From an uncultured Ruminococcus sp. (lineage in GTDB: Bacteria > Bacillota > Clostridia > Oscillospirales > Ruminococcaceae), in assembly GCA_949283135.1 (NCBI GenBank), contig CASDRM010000063.1, positions 1 to 32,926 of the forward strand: 32,926 nucleotides of DNA. The letters run 5' to 3'. A model generated the notes under the pieces. It did not search any database. It saw only the letters and a list, made by a program, of their open reading frames with translations, and was not told the DNA's origin. Each line of letters opens with the position of its first letter. The first letter of the stretch is position 1. A program made the position numbers and the translations under genes. Of the stretch, positions 10,030 through 27,186 are shown piece by piece.

Positions 10030-11034
10030 TTATTTGCCGCTGTCATCCTTCTCGCTGTCCTTAGTGTTATTTGGCAGCTTGTTGGGGTAATGCTTCTCAT
10101 AGCCGGATTTGTTCTTTCTTATTATTGCCCTTATGATAACAACTATGATAGCTATAATGGCGCCGTAGATTATGAGATACGGCAGCGAGCTGACTATGCC
10201 GACAAAGAAATTCTTGAAGCCGTTTCCGATATCGCTGAGGTTTTCGGAGAGGTTTTGACCGATTCTTTCAAATACTCCGAGCTGAGCTACAGACTCGGAT
10301 ATCTTTTTTACCTCTTGCACGCTGAGCCTGAGGGTGCTGTAGGCAATGAGGCTGTCATATGACTTTAGCTGGGCTGTGAAGGACTCTATCTGGTAGTTTA
10401 CGTCTGTCAGATAGCTTTGTATCTGAAGTATCTCGTCTACCGTCTGAGCCTGCTCCATAAGCTTGAGAAAGCTTTCCTGCTCGGCACGGAGCGAGGCGAG
10501 TCTTGCCTCGATGTCCACATAGCTTGAGGTCACATCGTCTACATACTCGTAGGAATAGGTGACGGCGGCCATATCGCCTATAAGGCTTGTAAATTCCTCA
10601 AATCTGTCTGCCGGAATACGTAAGGTATAGTTTGCGCTGCGCAGATCTGACTCATAATAGGAATTAAGGCTCATTGTGGAGTCCTGGACATATCCGCCGT
10701 ACTCGGAGACTTTTTGCGAAAGCTCGGTTGTAAAGCTGTCAAAATCAATCGTTTCAACGCTCATATCCTTGTTCTTTATAATCTTGCGTTCTGATAATGC
10801 GTCCGCCTCGGGGCTGTCGGATGCCACCGATTCCTCGGGCAGCATTGGAGATGAGGGATACGCGACGGAGTCCTCGGCAATTTCAGCCGTTTCCTTATCA
10901 ATCCATCCGGTGACGCCCGAGGCTGACTGGTTGTAGATGTTGTCCGACGCTTCGCTGCTGTCAGCGCAGGAGCACAGAATGACCGCGGAGAAGAGCAGCG
11001 CGACCGCTGCTGTAATGATTCGCTTTATTTTCAC
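10030..11034 (-). CDS. DUF4349 domain lipoprotein
   Basis: A GTG start at 11034 is chosen because GAAAGGA lies 9 bases upstream; upstream in-frame codons lack one. The signal peptide ends ILCSC (lipidated Cys23). A Ser/Glu/Ala-rich linker leads to a DUF4349 domain (about residues 85-265): RKIIKNKDMSVETIDFDSF, SEYGGYVQDSTMS, YTLRIPADRFEEF, then a long coiled helix with ARLASLRAEQESFLKLMEQA and TVDEILQIQSYL, and YSTLRLSVQEVKK. A transmembrane helix near the C-terminus (around LPYLIIYGAIIAIIVVIIRA) and a Lys-rich tail follow. Family members sit at the cell surface; their function is not established. It is divergent from rpoB. Confidence 0.85.
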   Translation of the reverse strand: MKIKRIITAAVALLFSAVILCSCADSSEASDNIYNQSASGVTGWIDKETAEIAEDSVAYPSSPMLPEESVASDSPEADALSERKIIKNKDMSVETIDFDSFTTELSQKVSEYGGYVQDSTMSLNSYYESDLRSANYTLRIPADRFEEFTSLIGDMAAVTYSYEYVDDVTSSYVDIEARLASLRAEQESFLKLMEQAQTVDEILQIQSYLTDVNYQIESFTAQLKSYDSLIAYSTLRLSVQEVKKISESVAQLGVFERIGQNLSENLSDIGNGFKNFFVGIVSSLPYLIIYGAIIAIIVVIIRAIIRKNKSGYEKHYPNKLPNNTKDSEKDDSGK

Positions 11035-11463
11035 TATTATCAGTCCTTTCGGTCTCTTTTGTAAATAAAACAATTAAGCCCGGATTTTTATTGCGCTAAA
11101 GCAGAAAAAATTGATTTTTCTCTCATAATTTTGAACTGATTGCTATAAGTTCACTATATTGAGACCGGGATATATGGCATATTTAGGCATTATCACGAAA
11201 AATATTTATTTTGCAAACTCCACTTGACATATTGACAAAAATAGTGTAACCTTTTAATTTGTATCATAATGGCAAAAAAGACGCCTATTTTAAAAAAGCC
11301 GATTTTTGGTTATGCTTTTTTAACGAAGTTTATTAAAGATAACGGCTGACATGTGTTTAAACATAACAAATGTGTTCTGCCAAGGCGGACAGTCGGCAAA
11401 AATCGGCGCGGCTTTTAGCGATTATTTCTTAATAATATATAAAGAATGAGGAGTGATAAGCCA
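11035..11463. promoter_or_regulatory. Divergent regulatory region and long rpoB leader
   Basis: This 429-base stretch holds no gene that I can support. On the plus strand two overlapping -35 boxes occur, TTGACA at 11224-11229 and 11232-11237; the second has TAATTT 17 bases downstream (11255-11260). On the minus strand TTGCAA (11216-11211) and GATAAT (11194-11189) with 16 bases could serve the DUF4349 gene. The rest is a roughly 200-base rpoB leader with inverted repeats: GCCGATTTTTG (11298-11308) pairs perfectly with CAAAAATCGGC (11397-11407), and AAAAAAGC / GCTTTTTT could form a competing hairpin at about 11292-11321. Confidence 0.6.
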
Positions 11464-19017: not shown

Positions 19018-19042
19018 GTGAGCGAATAAGGAGGCTGATGAG

Positions 19043-19375
19043 ATGTCGATGGCATCTGAGCTTATGCGCGGAAGAGTCGACGCCGCGATCTTGGCAAACA
19101 TTATCAACAAGGACAGCTACGGCTATGAGATAAACAAAATGATATTCCACAAGTCGGGCAGCAGATATGAGCTTAACGAAGCCACGCTGTACACCGCGTT
19201 CAAGAGGCTGATAGACCTTGGCTATATCGTCACCTACTGGGGAGAAGGGGAAGTCGGCGCGAGGAGAAAATACTACAGGATAACTCCAGACGGAAAGAAA
19301 GCATATTATCGTATGGTGAGCGAGTGGGAGGACGCAAAGAAGCTTGTTGACGCCATACTTGAAACGGAGGAATAA
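19043..19375 (+). CDS. PadR-family transcriptional regulator
   Basis: 110-residue winged-helix repressor. The sequence SELMRGRVDAAILANIINKDSYGYEINKMI is the typical PadR helix-turn-helix start; NEATLYTAFKRLIDLGYIVTYW is the recognition helix and wing entry; and GARRKYYRITPDGKKAY forms the wing. The C-terminal helix (about 90-110) is short, as in the small PadR subgroup that dimerises through it. AAGGAGG at 19028-19034 precedes the ATG by 8 bases. It is first in a three-gene operon with a HAAS-type membrane protein and a DUF4097 protein, an association well known in Firmicutes. Autoregulation is inferred from the palindromic consensus promoter; the inducing signal is unknown. Confidence 0.92.
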   Translation: MSMASELMRGRVDAAILANIINKDSYGYEINKMIFHKSGSRYELNEATLYTAFKRLIDLGYIVTYWGEGEVGARRKYYRITPDGKKAYYRMVSEWEDAKKLVDAILETEE

Positions 19376-19378
19376 AAG

Positions 19379-20071
19379 ATGGAGCAGAGAATAAAAAACT
19401 ATATCGACGGTCTTTTCAGGGACGCGCCTCAGACCGTGCATGCGGACGGCGTGAGGGGAGAGATAACCGCGAACACTCTTGACAGGTTCAGAGAGCTGAA
19501 AGACAGCGGAATGGATGAGGAGGCGGCGTTTCACGCGGCTATATCCGGCATAGGCGACATACATGAGCTGCTTGACGAGTATTCGAAGAACTTGTCCGAC
19601 GCCGGCGAGGCAGACGACGGGAAAGACCGCCGTAAGAAAGCCATGCTTATAAGCATAGCCGTGGCGCTGTATATAATAAGCGTTGTTCCGGTAATTTTGA
19701 TCCCTGCCGGCACACTCGGCATATGCCTGATGCTTGTGATAGTTGCCGCCGCGACAGGGCTGATTATATACGCCGGCTCTTACCTAAAGGCACGGGGAGG
19801 CCGTGATCTGTCAGAGGAACGGGAGCAGGACGCCGGCGACGAAGTCTCATACAGTCCGGAAAAAAAGAGACGTGAGCACATGAAAAAGGAAATAGACGGT
19901 ATGGTCTGGACGACCATAGTGATAGTTTATCTATGTGTCAGCTTTTTGACAAGCGCGTGGCATATAAGCTGGATAATCTTTCTCATAGGCGCTGCGGTCA
20001 GCCACCTTATAAACGCTATATCGGATTACAGGGAAGCGGCTAAGGACGAAGGAAAGGACAAATCAGAGTGA
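19379..20071 (+). CDS. HAAS/DUF1700-type membrane protein of the PadR module
   Basis: 230 residues. A cytoplasmic alpha-helical N-terminal domain (about 1-80) contains RIKNYIDGLF, RGEITANTLDRFRELKDSGMDEEAAFHAAISGIGD and LLDEYS, which matches the HAAS (helical domain attached to an integral membrane domain) pattern. A highly charged linker leads to two hydrophobic segments (about 83-135), a second charged loop, then two more helices near the C-terminus. The ribosome binding site GGAGG lies within the end of padR, so translation is coupled. Members of this family are regulated by PadR and thought to sense or respond to envelope conditions; no enzymatic motif is present. Confidence 0.82.
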   Translation: MEQRIKNYIDGLFRDAPQTVHADGVRGEITANTLDRFRELKDSGMDEEAAFHAAISGIGDIHELLDEYSKNLSDAGEADDGKDRRKKAMLISIAVALYIISVVPVILIPAGTLGICLMLVIVAAATGLIIYAGSYLKARGGRDLSEEREQDAGDEVSYSPEKKRREHMKKEIDGMVWTTIVIVYLCVSFLTSAWHISWIIFLIGAAVSHLINAISDYREAAKDEGKDKSE

Positions 20072-20982
20072 AAAGAAAAGCTGTAGTAAGGATTGTCGTA
20101 TGGTCTTTAATAATAGTTCTGCTTGCGGCTGTGATAATAGCGGCGATAGCAGCATCTAAAAACGGATTAGGAGGCTTCCAGGTCGGATTAGGCAGATTTT
20201 CTCTTGGCTATTACCGCTTTGGCAATTCAGGACAATACCAGATAGGTGATTTTTCCGCGGACGCAGGAAGCGTAAGGGAGATAGAGATCGAATGGCTTTA
20301 CGGGGACGTGAGGGTTGAGTCCTATGACGGCGACAGCATTTCGGTGAGCGAGGACGCGGGTCTTGACGAGGACGACATGCTAAGATATAGGATCCATGAC
20401 GGCAAAATAAGTATAAAATACCGAAAAAGCGGCTTCTATTACGGCAGCAGGGAAAAGGATTTAGTCGTGATGGTGCCCAATGATGCCGATTTAGACGAGC
20501 TTAAGGTGTCGGCGGGAGTAGGAGAGCTGACGGCAGCAGGATTAAGCGTAGGCCAGCTTGAGCTTGAAATGGTGAGCGGCAATGCAGTCTTGGAGAGAAT
20601 AAACGCGAGCAAGCTGAGCACCGAGTCTGTTTCGGGTGAAATAAGCGTGACCGGCTCAAGTTTCGAGGAAGCCAAGTTATCCTGCGTGTCCGGTGAGATA
20701 GACTTTTCCGGGATTGCGGATGAGATGGAATTCGAGTGCGTATCGGGGAAAATGAGCGCGGCATTTGAGGTCGCTCCTTCTGCCATTGAGATAGACGCCG
20801 TGAATTGCGACGCCGAGATTTTCCTCCCTGAGGGCAGCGGCGTGGCGGCGTCAACTGACGGAATATCAAGCCGCATCAGCATTTATGGGGTTGAAGCGGG
20901 AAGCGAGTATACCTATGGCGACGGTTATACCAGGCTTAAAGTCGATTCTGTGAACTCGGATGTGACGGTCTTGGCAAAATAG
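20068..20982 (+). CDS. DUF4097 family surface protein
   Basis: 304 residues from a GTG at 20068 that overlaps the previous stop codon (GTGA), so the two are translationally coupled. One N-terminal membrane helix (about residues 6-28) is followed by an extracytoplasmic beta-rich domain with repeating turns: WLYGDVRVES, VSAGVGELTAAGL, EMVSGNAVLERINA, ESVSGEISVTGS, CVSGEIDFSGI, CVSGKMSAAFE. This ladder of VSG-x-x-x motifs is characteristic of DUF4097/DUF4098 beta-helix-like adhesin folds. The role is unknown; operon context suggests an envelope-stress or surface function under PadR control. Confidence 0.85.
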   Translation: MKRKAVVRIVVWSLIIVLLAAVIIAAIAASKNGLGGFQVGLGRFSLGYYRFGNSGQYQIGDFSADAGSVREIEIEWLYGDVRVESYDGDSISVSEDAGLDEDDMLRYRIHDGKISIKYRKSGFYYGSREKDLVVMVPNDADLDELKVSAGVGELTAAGLSVGQLELEMVSGNAVLERINASKLSTESVSGEISVTGSSFEEAKLSCVSGEIDFSGIADEMEFECVSGKMSAAFEVAPSAIEIDAVNCDAEIFLPEGSGVAASTDGISSRISIYGVEAGSEYTYGDGYTRLKVDSVNSDVTVLAK

Positions 20983-21016: not shown

Positions 21017-21055
21017 GGACATCTCGGAAAATAATCCGAGGTGTCCCTTATTTCT
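21017..21055 (+). terminator. Terminator of the padR operon
   Basis: Twelve-base stem GGACATCTCGGA (21017-21028) / TCCGAGGTGTCC (21035-21046) with one wobble pair and a 6-base loop, followed by CTTATTTC. Confidence 0.8.
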
Positions 21056-21138: not shown

Positions 21139-21167
21139 TTGACTTTGATGTGAGCAAGTGATAAAAT
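21139..21167 (+). promoter_or_regulatory. Promoter of the esterase cluster
   Basis: TTGACT (21139-21144), 17 bases, TAAAAT (21162-21167), about 125 bases upstream of the first esterase. Confidence 0.7.
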
Positions 21168-21292: not shown

Positions 21293-22747
21293 ATGAAGAA
21301 ACTTATTTCAATCCTTTTGTGCGCTGCGATGCTTGCATCGCTGAGCGCATGCGCGAACGAAGACACCGGGGATGTGGACAAGCCCGACGACACCTCTGCC
21401 GTCACCGAAGCCCCAGATGAGGAGGAAGAAGAGGAAACCGAGGAGGTAACCGAGGCTCCCGAGGATGTCACGACCGTTGAGCCGGATGTAACAGAGGCTT
21501 CCGAGACAACTGTTCCCGAAACGACAACTGAGGAAGCAACAACGACCGAAGCCACTACTACAGAGGTCACCACTGTGACTACGACCGAGGCTACTACCGT
21601 CACCACCACCGCGGAGGAGATCAGCGTTGAGCCGATGAGCGCCGAGATGTACGCCAAGGCGAGCGTAAACGTAAGAAAAGGACCGTCGACCTCGTATGAC
21701 AGAGTAGGTCACCTTGACGAGGGCGAGAAGGTAGAAGTCACCGGCGTATGCGAGAACGGCTGGTACAGGATAGAGTTTGAGGGCGGCGAGTATTATGTCG
21801 GCGGAAGCTATCTCACAGATACCAAGCCCGAGGTTGTGACAACTGAGGCGACAAAGGCTGAAGAGCCTGAGAATGAGCCTGAGGATGCAAAGGATTCCTT
21901 CGAGATAGCCAAGGAGTTTATGGAGACTGTCGAAGACGATATCCAGACCTATATTCCCGACAAGGGATATCAGGATCCGGCGAGCAACGGCAACGCGAAC
22001 AATATCATAAAGACTACCTATTACTCAGACGTCGCAAAGCAGAATAAGAATGTTTGGATACAGCTTCCCTATGGCTACGACAAGAGCAAGGAATATCCTG
22101 TTTTGTATGTCCTCCACGGAATCTGGTGCGATGAGACTACCATGGTGAACAGTTCGCACACAAATGATATAATTGACAACATGACTGCCGAGGGCCTCGC
22201 AGAGGAAATGATCGTCGTATATCCCATGATGTACACCGACACAGAAAGGCTCAGACCTGACGGAATGGCTATGGTTGATACCGTTCCCGGCTACGACGCG
22301 ATCGTCGAGGATATTCTCTGCCTGATGGACTACATGTCGGATAACTACTCGGTAGCTGAGGGCAAGGACAACACCGCGGTATTCGGCTTCTCGATGGGAG
22401 GCAGAGAGGCTCTTGCGATAGGCTTTACCTACCCCGATAAGTTCGGATATGTAGGAGCAGCGTGCCCCGCTCCCGGACTTGTTCCCGGTCGCGACTGGGC
22501 GCTGGAGCATCCCGGACAGTTCCAGAACGACGAGCTCAAGTTTACGGACGAGATGCCTTACCTCGTGCTTATCGGCGCTGGCGACAAGGACGGCACAGTA
22601 GGCTCATTCCCGCAGAGCTACCATGAGCTTATGGAGAAGAACGGCGTAGAGCATATATTCTACATTGTTCCCGGTTCAGATCACGGCGACCCCGCGATCG
22701 CGAGCGTGACCTATAACTTCTGCAAGTACGTATTCAAGGCAAAGTAA
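21293..22747 (+). CDS. SH3-domain lipoprotein esterase, CE1-type (copy 1)
   Basis: 484-residue predicted surface lipoprotein. The signal ends LSAC (Cys20). A Glu/Thr-rich linker (about 24-112) precedes a bacterial SH3 domain (about 115-176: MYAKASVNVRKGPSTSYDRV, TGVCENGWYRIEF, GEYYVGG). The helix motif DSFEIAKEFME leads into an esterase-D/CE1 alpha/beta hydrolase (about 237-484): EYPVLYVLHGIW, GFSMGGREALAIG with nucleophile Ser367, Asp433 in GAGDKDG, and His464 in GSDHGDP. CE1 enzymes remove acetyl or feruloyl groups from xylan and similar polymers; the substrate here is unknown. No dockerin or carbohydrate-binding module is visible; anchoring is by lipid and perhaps SH3-wall binding. It is the first of four tandem paralogues. 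Confidence 0.88.
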   Translation: MKKLISILLCAAMLASLSACANEDTGDVDKPDDTSAVTEAPDEEEEEETEEVTEAPEDVTTVEPDVTEASETTVPETTTEEATTTEATTTEVTTVTTTEATTVTTTAEEISVEPMSAEMYAKASVNVRKGPSTSYDRVGHLDEGEKVEVTGVCENGWYRIEFEGGEYYVGGSYLTDTKPEVVTTEATKAEEPENEPEDAKDSFEIAKEFMETVEDDIQTYIPDKGYQDPASNGNANNIIKTTYYSDVAKQNKNVWIQLPYGYDKSKEYPVLYVLHGIWCDETTMVNSSHTNDIIDNMTAEGLAEEMIVVYPMMYTDTERLRPDGMAMVDTVPGYDAIVEDILCLMDYMSDNYSVAEGKDNTAVFGFSMGGREALAIGFTYPDKFGYVGAACPAPGLVPGRDWALEHPGQFQNDELKFTDEMPYLVLIGAGDKDGTVGSFPQSYHELMEKNGVEHIFYIVPGSDHGDPAIASVTYNFCKYVFKAK

Positions 22748-22774
22748 AATTTAATTTGAAGGACAGGAAGCATT

Positions 22775-23725
22775 ATGAAAAAACTTATTTTGATGTTTAC
22801 CTGCGCTGCGATGCTATTGTCGCTGTGCGCATGTGAAAATACAAATGACAAGGAAGATGAAGTAGTGGATACAAGAAGCTCCTTCGAGATAGCCGAGGAA
22901 TTTATGGACAGCATCGAGATTGAGACCTATATGCCCGACAACGGCTATCAGGATCCCGCCGAGGAGGACGAGGCAGGAGAGATAGTTGACATCACCTACT
23001 ATTCCGAGACGGTTAAGAAGGACAGGCCCGCAAAGGTACAGCTCCCCGCAAACTACGACGAGGACAAGGAGTACCCTGTTCTCTATGTCCTTCACGGAAT
23101 CTTCTGCGACCAGACCACCATGATCAACAGCTGGCAGACAAACGACATTGTTGACCACATGATAGCTGAGGGTCTCGCTGAGGAAATGATAGTTGTTTAC
23201 CCCTACATGTACGCGAGCGAGACTGAGGATACCTGCCCCGGGATCACCGTGGAGAGCGCGGCTAACTACGACAACTTCCTCAACGATCTCGTAAACGACC
23301 TCATGCCCTATATGGCTGAGAACTTCTCGGTTGCTGAGGGCAAGGACAACACCGCCGTCTTCGGCTTCTCGATGGGCGGCAGAGAGGCTCTTGCCATAGG
23401 CTTTACTTACCCGGATATGTTCGGCTACATCGCGGCAGCTTGCCCCGCTCCCGGACTCGTTCCCGGTCAGGACTGGGCTATGCAGCACCCCGGACAGTTC
23501 CAGAACGACGAGCTTAAGTTCACCGATGAAACGCCTTACCTCGTGCTTATCGGCGCCGGCGACAGCGACGGAACAGTAGGAACCTTCCCTGAGAGCTATC
23601 ACAATCTCATGGAGGAGAACGGTGTTAAGCATCTGTGGTACATCATTCCCGGCTCGGATCACGGCGACCCCGCGATTGCGAGCGTGACCTATAACTTCCT
23701 CAAATACGTATTCAAGGCGAAATAA
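22775..23725 (+). CDS. Minimal lipoprotein esterase, CE1-type (copy 2)
   Basis: 316 residues and the shortest paralogue. The lipoprotein signal ends LCAC (Cys20) and leads through only about 15 residues to the SSFEIAEEFMD helix and directly into the esterase domain; the SH3 domain and Thr-rich linker are absent. The triad is Ser199 (GFSMGGREALAIG), Asp265 (GAGDSDG) and His296 (GSDHGDP). Its catalytic domain is the closest to copy 1: both share PAPGLVPG, HPGQFQNDELKFTDE and the ending YVFKAK. It starts 27 bases after copy 1, with AGGACAGGAAG before the ATG and no terminator between, so the two are very likely cotranscribed. Confidence 0.88.
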   Translation: MKKLILMFTCAAMLLSLCACENTNDKEDEVVDTRSSFEIAEEFMDSIEIETYMPDNGYQDPAEEDEAGEIVDITYYSETVKKDRPAKVQLPANYDEDKEYPVLYVLHGIFCDQTTMINSWQTNDIVDHMIAEGLAEEMIVVYPYMYASETEDTCPGITVESAANYDNFLNDLVNDLMPYMAENFSVAEGKDNTAVFGFSMGGREALAIGFTYPDMFGYIAAACPAPGLVPGQDWAMQHPGQFQNDELKFTDETPYLVLIGAGDSDGTVGTFPESYHNLMEENGVKHLWYIIPGSDHGDPAIASVTYNFLKYVFKAK

Positions 23726-23770
23726 GATAGCCGGACAGCATATCCGGCGGCATTTACCGGAGAACAGCTT

Positions 23771-25213
23771 ATGAAACTTATGAAAAGAACTGCCATACTT
23801 TCTTTTGCTATCCTTGCGGCTTCTGTGTGCGTGCTTTGCGGATGCGAGGCGATAAATGTTGACATCGATCGGGGAGACAGCGCGGCGACTACCGTTACGG
23901 ACACCGCTTTGCCCGACGAGTCGGAGGATGTCAGCATTACCACAGAGCCTGCCGGCACAACTCCCGCTGTGACAACTCCCCCCGAAATCACCACTCTGCC
24001 ACAGACGACCACGGTTCTCCCCGAGACTACGACTGCGACCACCACTGCAGTACCCGAGACGGAGGCTCCCGAGACTACCACCGAGTTCAGCTTTGAGGTC
24101 AAGCCGATGAAGGCAACAATGTACGCCACGGCTTCTACGCATGTCAGAACCGGTCCCGCGACCTTCTTTGATATTGTCGGATACCTTCACCTTGGGGACG
24201 AGATAGAGGTAACCGGCGTATGCGATAACAGCTGGTACAGGATCAAGTTCAAGGGCGGCGAATATTATGTCGGCTGGTTGTATGTGAGTGAAGAGCGTCC
24301 TCACGGAGCGACATCTTCTACGACAGACGATGAAGAAATAATCCTCCCCGATGAATCAGTGGCGGACGAGTCGTTCGAGATAGCCGACGAGTTTATGGCT
24401 GAGGCGGCGAACGGCATTTCAGAGTACTGTCCGGAGGAATATTCTGAGGAGCAGTCCGGCAGGGAATACGGCGAGCTTGTCGTTGACAGGTACTATTCGG
24501 ACACCTGCGGGAGGAACAGACCGGTAAATATAATCCTCCCCGCCGGTTATGACGAGAACAGAAAGTACCCTGTTCTGTACGTCCTGCACGGGATGTTCGG
24601 CAACGAGTACGCCATGATGAACAATAACCGCACTCACATCATTTTGGGTAACATGATGGCGCAGGGACTCGCTGAGGATATGATTATAGTCTTCCCGTAT
24701 ATCTACGCCGGTCAGGACAAGAATGCGTTCACAGACTTTACCGCGGAGGATATGTCCGGCTATGACAACTTCCTAAACGACCTTGTCAACGATCTTATGC
24801 CGTATATGGCAGAAAACTACTCGATAGCCCATGGCAAGGACAACACCGCGGTGCTCGGCTTTTCTATCGGAGGCAGAGAGGCTCTTGCCATAGGATTTAC
24901 TTATCCGGACAAGTTCGGCTATATAGGAGCCGTATGTCCGGTGCCCGGACTGACGCCGTCCTCTGAGGAGTGGAATCCCGGGCAGCTAAGCGAGGAGGAG
25001 CTGAGCTTTGGCAGCGAAACGCCATATCTTATTATGGTAGGGGCGACGGAGTCCGACAGCGTAGTCGCAGACGCCCCCGAGAGCTACCACGAGATCATGG
25101 AGGACAACGGCGTGACACATCTGTGGTATGTAGTTGAAAACTCCGACCATGGTGAGCCCGCTATTGCTAGCGTGACCTATAACTTCGGGAAATATGTCTT
25201 CAGGGCTAAATAA
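23771..25213 (+). CDS. SH3-domain lipoprotein esterase, CE1-type (copy 3)
   Basis: 480 residues. The signal ends LCGC (Cys25), then comes a Thr/Pro-rich linker (about 40-108), an SH3 domain (about 111-176: MYATASTHVRTGPATFFDIV, TGVCDNSWYRIKF), a short acidic IILPDESVADESFEIADEFM junction and the CE1-type domain. The nucleophile elbow is GFSIGG (Ser365) rather than GFSMGG. The acid aligns as Asp429 in GATESDS and the base as His460 in NSDHGEP. PGLTPSSEEWNPGQ is shared with copy 4, not with copies 1 and 2. GGAG at 23759-23762 lies 8 bases before the ATG. It sits 45 bases after copy 2 with no terminator. Confidence 0.87.
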   Translation: MKLMKRTAILSFAILAASVCVLCGCEAINVDIDRGDSAATTVTDTALPDESEDVSITTEPAGTTPAVTTPPEITTLPQTTTVLPETTTATTTAVPETEAPETTTEFSFEVKPMKATMYATASTHVRTGPATFFDIVGYLHLGDEIEVTGVCDNSWYRIKFKGGEYYVGWLYVSEERPHGATSSTTDDEEIILPDESVADESFEIADEFMAEAANGISEYCPEEYSEEQSGREYGELVVDRYYSDTCGRNRPVNIILPAGYDENRKYPVLYVLHGMFGNEYAMMNNNRTHIILGNMMAQGLAEDMIIVFPYIYAGQDKNAFTDFTAEDMSGYDNFLNDLVNDLMPYMAENYSIAHGKDNTAVLGFSIGGREALAIGFTYPDKFGYIGAVCPVPGLTPSSEEWNPGQLSEEELSFGSETPYLIMVGATESDSVVADAPESYHEIMEDNGVTHLWYVVENSDHGEPAIASVTYNFGKYVFRAK

Positions 25214-25312
25214 ATGGGTTAAGATGCAGATATAAAATGCGCCGCTTTGTCTCTTCAAAAGGAAGTAGCCGTGCGGCACTTTTATGAAAATCAAATGGAG
25301 GATGTTGTGATT

Positions 25313-26929
25313 ATGAAGAGAAAAACACTCGCCGCAATTTGCGGGCTATGCGCCATGTGCGCAATTATGCTTTGCGGCTGCGGCAGCAGGGACAGGACTC
25401 AGCAGCCTGATGTCATGCCGAACGGACTTGTTGCGGGAGGCGCCGTGACGGTAGCGCCCGAGGCAAACACAGGGCTCCTTGCCAGTCCCGTTCAGCGTGC
25501 GTTCGGTATTGAGAACGCGGTTGAAATAAGATCTATCAAGCTTGTGATGTATGTCAATGAGGATGTCGATGTCAGAAAGGGACCCGGCACTGGCTACGAC
25601 GTAGCTATATCTCTTGACAAGGGCGATAAGGTCGTAGTCACCGGCGTATGCACCAATAGCTGGTATAGGATAAAGGTAGACAAGAAAGAGTACTATGTGC
25701 AAAGAAAGTTCCTCTCCGTGAAAAAGCCTACCGACGAGGACAACGCCTCCGTCACCACCGAGGAGGATGAGATATACCTTCCTGACGAGCCGACTGTCAC
25801 TACTGAGGAGGACGAGATTTATCTTCCCGACGAATCGAGCGTGGTGACTATGCCTACGATCATCACCACACATCCGAGCGTTCCGACATATACTCAGCCG
25901 ATAGTGACTACCACAACTCCGGCTGAGACTACAGTCACCACTACTACTCCGGCTGAGACTACAGTCACCACTACTACCCCGGTAGTGACCACGGTTACCA
26001 CAACCACTCCGGTCGTGACTACGGTTACCACAACCGAGCCGGTTCCCTCTGTGGATGATTCGTTTGAGATAGCGGAGAGTTTGGCTGACATTGTTCAAAG
26101 CGATATCGTCACGATAGAAAATAATAGCGAACTGTATCACAGCCTTAGAGAACTTACATATGTTGGCATTACTGATGCTAACATTAAGGAGTATACTTAT
26201 TACTCTCCAGTTGCTGAGAAGAACAAAACCTACAAGGTTCAGTTGCCTCCCAACTTCTCTGCCGATAGGGAGTATCCTGTGCTAATTATTCTACACGGAA
26301 TTAACGGCAACATGGACACGATGAGAAACGATTGGTGGAATCATATTATCATTGACAATATGATGAGACGCGGTCTTGCTGAAGAGATGATAGTCGTATA
26401 TCCGAACATGATAACCAGCAAAGACCACGATACCTTTACCGAGATAAACCTTGAGTCTGCTCAGGCGCACGATGCCTTTGTTCAGGATATTCAGGCACTG
26501 ATGAGTGATCTTTATTCCCGCACTGAGTTCAAGGCAGCTCGCGGCAAGGAGAACACCGCTATCTTTGGCTTCTCAATGGGCGGACGCGAGGCGCTTGCGA
26601 TAGGGTATACCTACCCTGAACAGTTTGGATATATCGGCGCTGCCTGCCCTGCACCGGGGCTGACTCCGTCTTCGGAAGCGTGGAATCCCGGACAGTTCCA
26701 AGAAGATGAGCTTAAGTTTGAGGAAACAAGACCCTATCTTATAATGATAGGAGCATCCAAATGGGACGGCATGGTCGGACAGGCACCTTTGAACTACCAC
26801 AATATCATGAGTAGAAACGAGACTTATGCCAGACATGTCTGGTTTGAGATGGATACAGGAAACCACGGTGATCCGACTATCATAAGTACTCTTTACAACT
26901 TCGCGAGATACGCATTTACCGCTAAATAA
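25313..26929 (+). CDS. SH3-domain lipoprotein esterase with repeat linker (copy 4)
   Basis: 538 residues from the ATG at 25313; a GTG at 25307, only 5 bases after GGAGG (25297-25301), is an equally plausible start. The signal ends LCGC (Cys23). The SH3 domain comes earlier than in copies 1 and 3 (about 75-137: VDVRKGPGTGYDVA, TGVCTNSWYRIKV). Then follow two EDEIYLPDE units, four TPAETTVTTT-like decapeptides (202-241), DDSFEIAES, and the esterase domain with Ser421 (GFSMGG), Asp485 (GASKWDG) and His518 (TGNHGDP). It is the most divergent of the four and has more A/T-ending codons in its catalytic part. No terminator separates it from the alaS T-box promoter. Confidence 0.86.
   Translation: MKRKTLAAICGLCAMCAIMLCGCGSRDRTQQPDVMPNGLVAGGAVTVAPEANTGLLASPVQRAFGIENAVEIRSIKLVMYVNEDVDVRKGPGTGYDVAISLDKGDKVVVTGVCTNSWYRIKVDKKEYYVQRKFLSVKKPTDEDNASVTTEEDEIYLPDEPTVTTEEDEIYLPDESSVVTMPTIITTHPSVPTYTQPIVTTTTPAETTVTTTTPAETTVTTTTPVVTTVTTTTPVVTTVTTTEPVPSVDDSFEIAESLADIVQSDIVTIENNSELYHSLRELTYVGITDANIKEYTYYSPVAEKNKTYKVQLPPNFSADREYPVLIILHGINGNMDTMRNDWWNHIIIDNMMRRGLAEEMIVVYPNMITSKDHDTFTEINLESAQAHDAFVQDIQALMSDLYSRTEFKAARGKENTAIFGFSMGGREALAIGYTYPEQFGYIGAACPAPGLTPSSEAWNPGQFQEDELKFEETRPYLIMIGASKWDGMVGQAPLNYHNIMSRNETYARHVWFEMDTGNHGDPTIISTLYNFARYAFTAK
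25751..25840 (+). repeat. 45-bp tandem duplication inside copy-4 esterase
   Basis: Two in-frame 45-base units (25751-25795 and 25796-25840), each encoding VTTEEDEIYLPDE plus two residues (PT or SS). They differ mainly at third positions, so the duplication is not recent. Confidence 0.85.
25916..26035 (+). repeat. 30-bp tandem repeat, four units, linker of copy-4 esterase
   Basis: Four in-frame 30-base units at 25916, 25946, 25976 and 26006. Units 1 and 2 are identical (TPAETTVTTT). Units 3 and 4 are near-identical to each other (TPVVTTVTTT). A degenerate copy precedes unit 1. This is a Thr-rich spacer prone to slippage and length change. Confidence 0.92.
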
Positions 26930-26933
26930 AGTA

Positions 26934-26962
26934 TTGACAATCCCGTTTCAATCACCTATAAT
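26934..26962 (+). promoter_or_regulatory. Consensus promoter for alaS
   Basis: TTGACA (26934-26939), 17 bases, TATAAT (26957-26962): a perfect sigma-A consensus beginning 5 bases after the stop codon of the fourth esterase. Confidence 0.88.
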
Positions 26963-26969
26963 AGTGATG

Positions 26970-27186
26970 TTTGAAGCGGCGACGACGGGAATGACTGCTG
27001 GTATGGTCTTTTCAGAGAAAGGGCGGATGGTGAAAGCCCCCGGGACCGGCGGCAGGTGCTACCCCTGAGCCTTGCGGTAAACCGCAGCGGATTGGCGCGT
27101 TATAGCCTTGTGAGGTCTTTTTAAGACAAAATTGGGTGGTACAGCGATAACCTCGCCCCATGTTTGGGGTGGGGTTATATTTTTTT
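26970..27186 (+). promoter_or_regulatory. Alanine T-box leader
   Basis: tRNA-sensing leader. The T-box sequence AATTGGGTGGTACAGCG (27130-27146) is near consensus. In stem I, GGG (26987-26989) pairs with CCC (27061-27063), and CTGCTG pairs with CGGCAG. This leaves a specifier loop with GCT (27057-27059) followed by A, an alanine codon that fits the downstream alaS. The distal loop region CAGAGAAAGGGCGGATGGTGAAAGCC is of T-box type. Uncharged tRNA-Ala should stabilise the antiterminator and switch alaS on. Confidence 0.93.
27147..27186 (+). terminator. T-box terminator
   Basis: Thirteen-base stem ATAACCTCGCCCC (27147-27159) / GGGGTGGGGTTAT (27166-27178) with two wobble pairs, followed by a T-run to 27186. 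Its 5' arm follows directly on the T-box sequence, as the regulatory switch requires. It may also stop read-through from the esterase genes. Confidence 0.92.

Follow-up and report, generated by a model that had tools for sequence, protein, structure and literature searches.

Which polymer do four neighbouring surface esterases of an uncultured Ruminococcus act on, and do the four form one system? The question arises from positions 21293-26929 of a 32,926-nt contig (the window, meaning the whole stretch of DNA analyzed here), where four tandem genes on the + strand, E1 to E4, each encode a lipoprotein with a CE1 domain (Pfam PF00756). A preliminary description had read them as one surface system of paralogous esterases, three of them carrying a bacterial SH3 domain and a Thr-rich linker, and had left the substrate open between the cell's own wall and a plant glycan.

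Four lipoproteins with a CE1 catalytic domain

The encoded proteins comprise 484, 316, 480 and 538 residues (E1 to E4), with the lipoprotein signal at the N-terminus and CE1 at the C-terminus in all of them. The genes and their domains are:

21293..22747, + strand: E1; lipobox Cys20, Thr-rich linker, SH3_3, CE1; triad Ser367, Asp433, His464
21437..21616, + strand: most Thr-rich stretch of E1, 26 Thr in 60 residues, N-terminal to SH3
21662..21814, + strand: SH3_3 domain of E1, modelled as strands with high pLDDT
22775..23725, + strand: E2; lipobox Cys20, CE1, without SH3; triad Ser199, Asp265, His296
23771..25213, + strand: E3; lipobox Cys25, Thr linker, SH3_3, CE1; triad Ser365, Asp429, His460
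24137..24280, + strand: SH3_3 domain of E3
25313..26929, + strand: E4, the most divergent copy; lipobox Cys23, SH3_3, long Thr-rich linker, CE1; triad Ser421, Asp485, His518
25562..25717, + strand: SH3_3 domain of E4
25748..26050, + strand: Thr-rich linker of E4 from SH3 to CE1, mostly disordered in the predicted model

All four proteins match the Pfam esterase family above its curated cut-off (E-values of 5e-16, 4e-24, 7e-22 and 1e-17 for E1 to E4), and E1, E3 and E4 also exceed the cut-off for SH3_3 (PF08239; 1e-12, 1e-7 and 4e-7, respectively). E2 carries no SH3_3 at the Pfam cut-off and no Thr-rich linker either. This linker precedes the SH3 domain in E1 and E3 and separates SH3 from CE1 in E4, and the peak number of Thr per 60 residues is 26 in E1, 22 in E3 and 32 in E4. 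The lipoboxes read LSAC (E1), LCAC (E2) and LCGC (E3 and E4), from which lipid anchoring is predicted; for E4, the listed ORF opens at a TTG at 25247, and the lipoprotein signal comes from the ATG at 25313. The nucleophile elbow is GFSMGGREALAIG in E1, E2 and E4 and GFSIGGREALAIG in E3, and the triad residues Ser, Asp and His are invariant in 22 of 22 aligned sequences (E1-E4 and 18 relatives), including the columns of AmCE1 and XynZ. The shared lipoprotein, CE1 and triad architecture is far beyond chance. Thus ORFs, Pfam matches and lipoboxes bear out the preliminary description as to four tandem paralogues, their place and strand, and it was equally right about the elbow with its conserved Asp and His and about the SH3 domain and linker on three of the four proteins.

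Among proteins of known structure, the closest sequence match of E2 is the ferulic acid esterase AmCE1/Fae1A (5cxu, E-value 6e-63), followed by the XynZ feruloyl esterase (1jjf, 6e-37). AlphaFold models of E1 and E4, in which SH3 and CE1 are confident and the linkers between them disordered, also match AmCE1 best, with TM-scores (normalised to the target) of 0.91 and 0.84. Since sequence and predicted fold both match AmCE1, CE1 membership of E1-E4 is well supported. AmCE1, from the anaerobic fungus Anaeromyces mucronatus (PDB 5cxu/5cxx), shares the CE1 fold and triad, with 35-40% identity over the domain, but it has neither lipid anchor nor SH3. The XynZ domain of Clostridium thermocellum (PDB 1jjf/1jt2) likewise has the CE1 feruloyl esterase fold and triad; however, it is part of a cellulosomal xylanase, is without the clamp, and reaches an identity of only 24-28% in the fold matches. 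The catalytic Ser aligns with the residue mutated in 1jt2, the S172A mutant (PMC8040265).

The region that alignment, rather than coordinates, equates with the AmCE1 beta-clamp is near full length in E1 and E2 and a shorter loop in E3 and E4, and in this region a small hairpin appears at 399-406 of the E1 model but not in the E4 model. This difference suggests that E1/E2 and E3/E4 may accept substrates of different shapes. Because CE1 includes acetyl-xylan and cinnamoyl as well as feruloyl esterases, between which sequence does not decide (PMC8040265), feruloyl specificity of E1-E4 is likely rather than certain.

A genus-wide tether at a conserved locus

The enzyme class of E1-E4 is already known; what is new is the display of a feruloyl-esterase-type CE1 on SH3 and lipid, and the exchange of the catalytic domain behind this display stem. 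SH3-CE1 fusions occur in four genomes of the genus, namely the window's, G021, G023 and the sister genome G012, which appears to be Candidatus Faeciplasma pullistercoris and which matches the window at about 95-96% identity in the genes they have in common. In a sample of 298 genomes of the family the fusions are found nowhere else among matches at E 1e-90 or better, a threshold that could miss more diverged fusions elsewhere. The SH3 anchor is an unusual feature of these CE1 esterases, as had been suspected, and the cluster recurs in G012, G021 and G023. An already characterised SH3-CE1 esterase family was sought in the open-access literature, where no paper combines both domains, which is weak evidence given that subscription journals lie outside this coverage. 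G023 also encodes a 1315-residue protein (L065:4771-8718) with a C-terminal CE1 and about 1000 residues that lack a Pfam match.

In an alignment of 44 SH3_3 proteins of the genus, the lipobox Cys and the core SH3 residues are invariant. The fusion partners among these SH3-Thr lipoproteins (L001, L111-L159) include GHL10 (12 proteins), transglutaminase core (12), GDSL (5), GH5 (4) and VanY (3). The lipobox-Thr-SH3 module is a general genus-wide surface tether that is not specific to CE1 esterases and, because it carries many unrelated domains, it says where an enzyme sits and not what it cuts. We accordingly rejected the idea that SH3 points to a wall substrate, the same module being borne by GH5, GDSL, GHL10, transglutaminase-like and VanY proteins.

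The cluster sits between a PadR-like/permease-prefix/DUF4097 operon and alaS, and occupies the same place in G012, G021 and G023. A single esterase stands beside alaS in G008, and copy number at the locus varies from one to four between genomes. Apart from the upstream operon, the neighbours are the housekeeping genes rpoB, rpoC, alaS and holA. The earlier reading that no glycoside hydrolase, transporter or polysaccharide-utilisation regulator adjoins the esterases holds locally; a GH77 gene is found 14 kb from the cluster. Whereas a PUL has its esterases beside glycoside hydrolases, a transporter and a regulator, here housekeeping and envelope genes adjoin, and the cluster does not qualify as a PUL. 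The upstream genes (19025-20982) encode a PadR-like protein, which the ORF list, at 120 aa, misses, a permease-prefix membrane protein and a DUF4097/LiaG-like protein. They probably form a regulated envelope operon, which lies beside esterases in four related genomes. Farther off, the minus strand carries a gene for a DUF4349 lipoprotein (10030-11073), flanked by recG and rpoB. On the downstream side, a predicted perfect TTGACA-17-TATAAT promoter begins 5 bases past the E4 stop codon, and a T-box leader before alaS (26934-27163) aligns over the whole Rfam model, scoring 72.6 bits against a gathering score of 93.

Three further features bear on expression of the esterases:

21017..21046, + strand: predicted intrinsic terminator between the DUF4097 gene and the esterases, conserved in G012
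21139..21167, + strand: predicted promoter TTGACT-17-TAAAAT upstream of E1, a consensus match only, conserved in G012
25214..25312, + strand: E3-E4 gap, aligning to a G012 region with a terminator-like hairpin (by eye) that is degraded here

The upstream terminator, the promoter-like site and the short E1-E2 and E2-E3 gaps make co-transcription of E1-E3 plausible. The view of the cluster as one surface system holds only in part: E1-E3 look co-transcribed, but a terminator-like hairpin follows the E3 orthologue in G012, E4 is the most divergent copy, and E1 is recombinant. An RNA element was sought upstream of E1 and none was found; the leader there is no more conserved than the genome average (about 95%).

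Plant xylan as the probable substrate

We consider it probable that E1-E4 are surface-held CE1 esterases removing ester groups from plant xylan, most likely ferulate or other hydroxycinnamates and possibly acetate. Plant xylan is favored over the cell's own wall because of the feruloyl-esterase match, the fusion of related CE1 domains to xylanases and dockerins, and the xylan-degrading genes of the genome. Among the 298 family genomes, the top matches from beyond the genus include GH10-CBM-dockerin-CE1, GH98-CBM-dockerin-CE1, CBM-dockerin-CE1 or dockerin-CE1 proteins; GH98 enzymes have a xylanase role. The CE1 domains of these proteins are close to E1-E4, but they are docked to cellulosomes via their dockerin, whereas E1-E4 use lipid and, in three cases, SH3. 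The dockerin that marks a cellulosomal esterase had no match in E1-E4, nor elsewhere in the genome at E 1e-3, and E1-E4 are not of the cellulosomal kind. Family searches of the draft assembly (127 contigs, probably a MAG) gave 4 GH10 and at least 13 GH43 domain matches. Pattern matching shows a lipobox in several GH43 proteins and in two of the four GH10 proteins; inspection by eye adds a similar signal in a third GH10 protein. GH5 cellulase domains are found on some other SH3-Thr lipoproteins of the genus. With dN/dS values of 0.05 and 0.13 relative to their orthologues, E2 and E3 are under purifying selection. Several distinct CE1 esterases are also encoded together for xylan in a multi-CE1 PUL of Dysgonomonas mossii (PMC8040265). 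E1-E4 resemble such Bacteroidota loci in this clustering, but there glycoside hydrolases are adjacent and CBM48 is carried, whereas E1-E4 have no adjacent glycoside hydrolase and use an SH3 tether.

In the proposed mechanism, a lipid on the N-terminal Cys would tether each esterase outside a monoderm gut bacterium. In three of the proteins the disordered Thr-rich stretch and the SH3 domain, which we infer to bind peptidoglycan, would place CE1 at the wall or outside it. Catalysis would follow the usual Ser-His-Asp acyl-enzyme route and cleave ferulate, other hydroxycinnamate or acetate esters off xylan fragments, and the cell's own GH10 and GH43 enzymes could thereby gain access to the xylan backbone.

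Against xylan, no xylanase adjoins the cluster, and the shared SH3 tether also carries the wall-related VanY and GHL10, so that location alone is compatible with a wall role. The esterases could then target the cell's own envelope (O-acetyl peptidoglycan, or D-alanyl or acetyl esters of teichoic acid), with SH3 bringing them to the wall, in agreement with SH3_3 being typical of wall-binding proteins and with the envelope-related look of the upstream operon and its LiaG-like protein. To our knowledge, however, peptidoglycan O-acetyl esterases belong to other families (SGNH), not CE1; moreover, the nearest CE1 relatives are feruloyl esterases and xylanase fusions, and E2 has no SH3 at all, which together make an envelope substrate improbable. 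Even less credible to us is a general role in detoxifying or scavenging small esters, phenolic or other, rather than in attacking polysaccharides: S-formylglutathione hydrolase, PHB depolymerase and enterochelin esterase do count among the CE1-fold relatives, but they match much less well than AmCE1, CBMs and dockerins occur in the sister lineages, and a surface tether fits a polymeric substrate. The choice between wall and plant glycan that the preliminary description had left open is in this way narrowed to plant xylan, with the own wall disfavored.

Mosaic structure of E1

E2 and E3 are 94% and 93% identical to their G012 orthologues. For E1, identity to the orthologue is about 95% as far as residue ~199 and falls to 37-85% per segment across CE1. 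The junction maps to the following position:

21887..21905, + strand: E1 recombination junction; DNA ahead of it about 95% identical to the orthologue, DNA beyond it 37-85% per segment

Ahead of the junction the two E1 genes have a synonymous divergence of 0.20; beyond it, this divergence is saturated. In the tree, the E1 catalytic domain of G012 falls with the one from the SH3 gene of G021, whereas the window's E1 domain falls with E2, and joint grouping of both E1 catalytic domains is rejected with a p-AU of 2e-5 in a test chosen after the divergence had been noticed. On the simplest reading, the window's E1 would have kept its own display stem and acquired a catalytic domain resembling that of E2. 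We rejected a recent gene conversion in which the present E2 was the donor, as the catalytic domains of E1 and E2 differ at a dS of 0.93; the donor would therefore be an E2-like copy unseen in the two genomes compared. A check for a plasmid source gave only distant matches (<60% identity). The orthologous cluster of G012 consists of three genes and a decayed fourth. At this fourth position, between the third esterase and alaS (L044:13900-14125), lies a short remnant of the C-terminal part of an esterase, interrupted by a stop codon, which resembles E1-E3 more than E4 and so need not be an E4 orthologue.

Might the mosaic be an assembly chimera? The assembly is a draft in 127 contigs and the comparison is with one sister genome, but the new E1 domain is identical to no other copy (dS 0.93 to E2), the word shared with E2 at the junction spans no more than about 15 bases, and the frame stays open across the domain boundary, so that we give an artefact little credence and regard E1 as a real recombinant. 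The four copies may also be redundant dosage paralogues of one specificity, a by-product of tandem duplication, which would be compatible with action on xylan. The same triad and elbow in all copies and the variation from one to four copies at the locus agree with this; however, the CE1 domains differ strongly (E4 has a long branch, and the clamp loop is shorter in E3 and E4) and orthologues are conserved at low dN/dS, and we judge mere redundancy unlikely. More speculatively, and with less than even odds in our view, the cluster could be a reservoir for catalytic-domain exchange, in which recombination between neighbouring copies or between strains supplies a constant lipid-Thr-SH3 stem with varied CE1 domains. 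If so, the specificity of surface esterases would change quickly while their display stays unchanged. The domain swap in E1 is a concrete case where recombination could change specificity.

For a gut Oscillospiraceae lineage, these proteins place the feruloyl-esterase type known from cellulosomes on a lipid and SH3 tether, not on a dockerin, in a genome with no detected dockerins and with dispersed xylan enzymes. If confirmed, this would mean that surface fibre breakdown can be organised without a cellulosome or a PUL, and would provide a modular display stem that is potentially useful for surface display.
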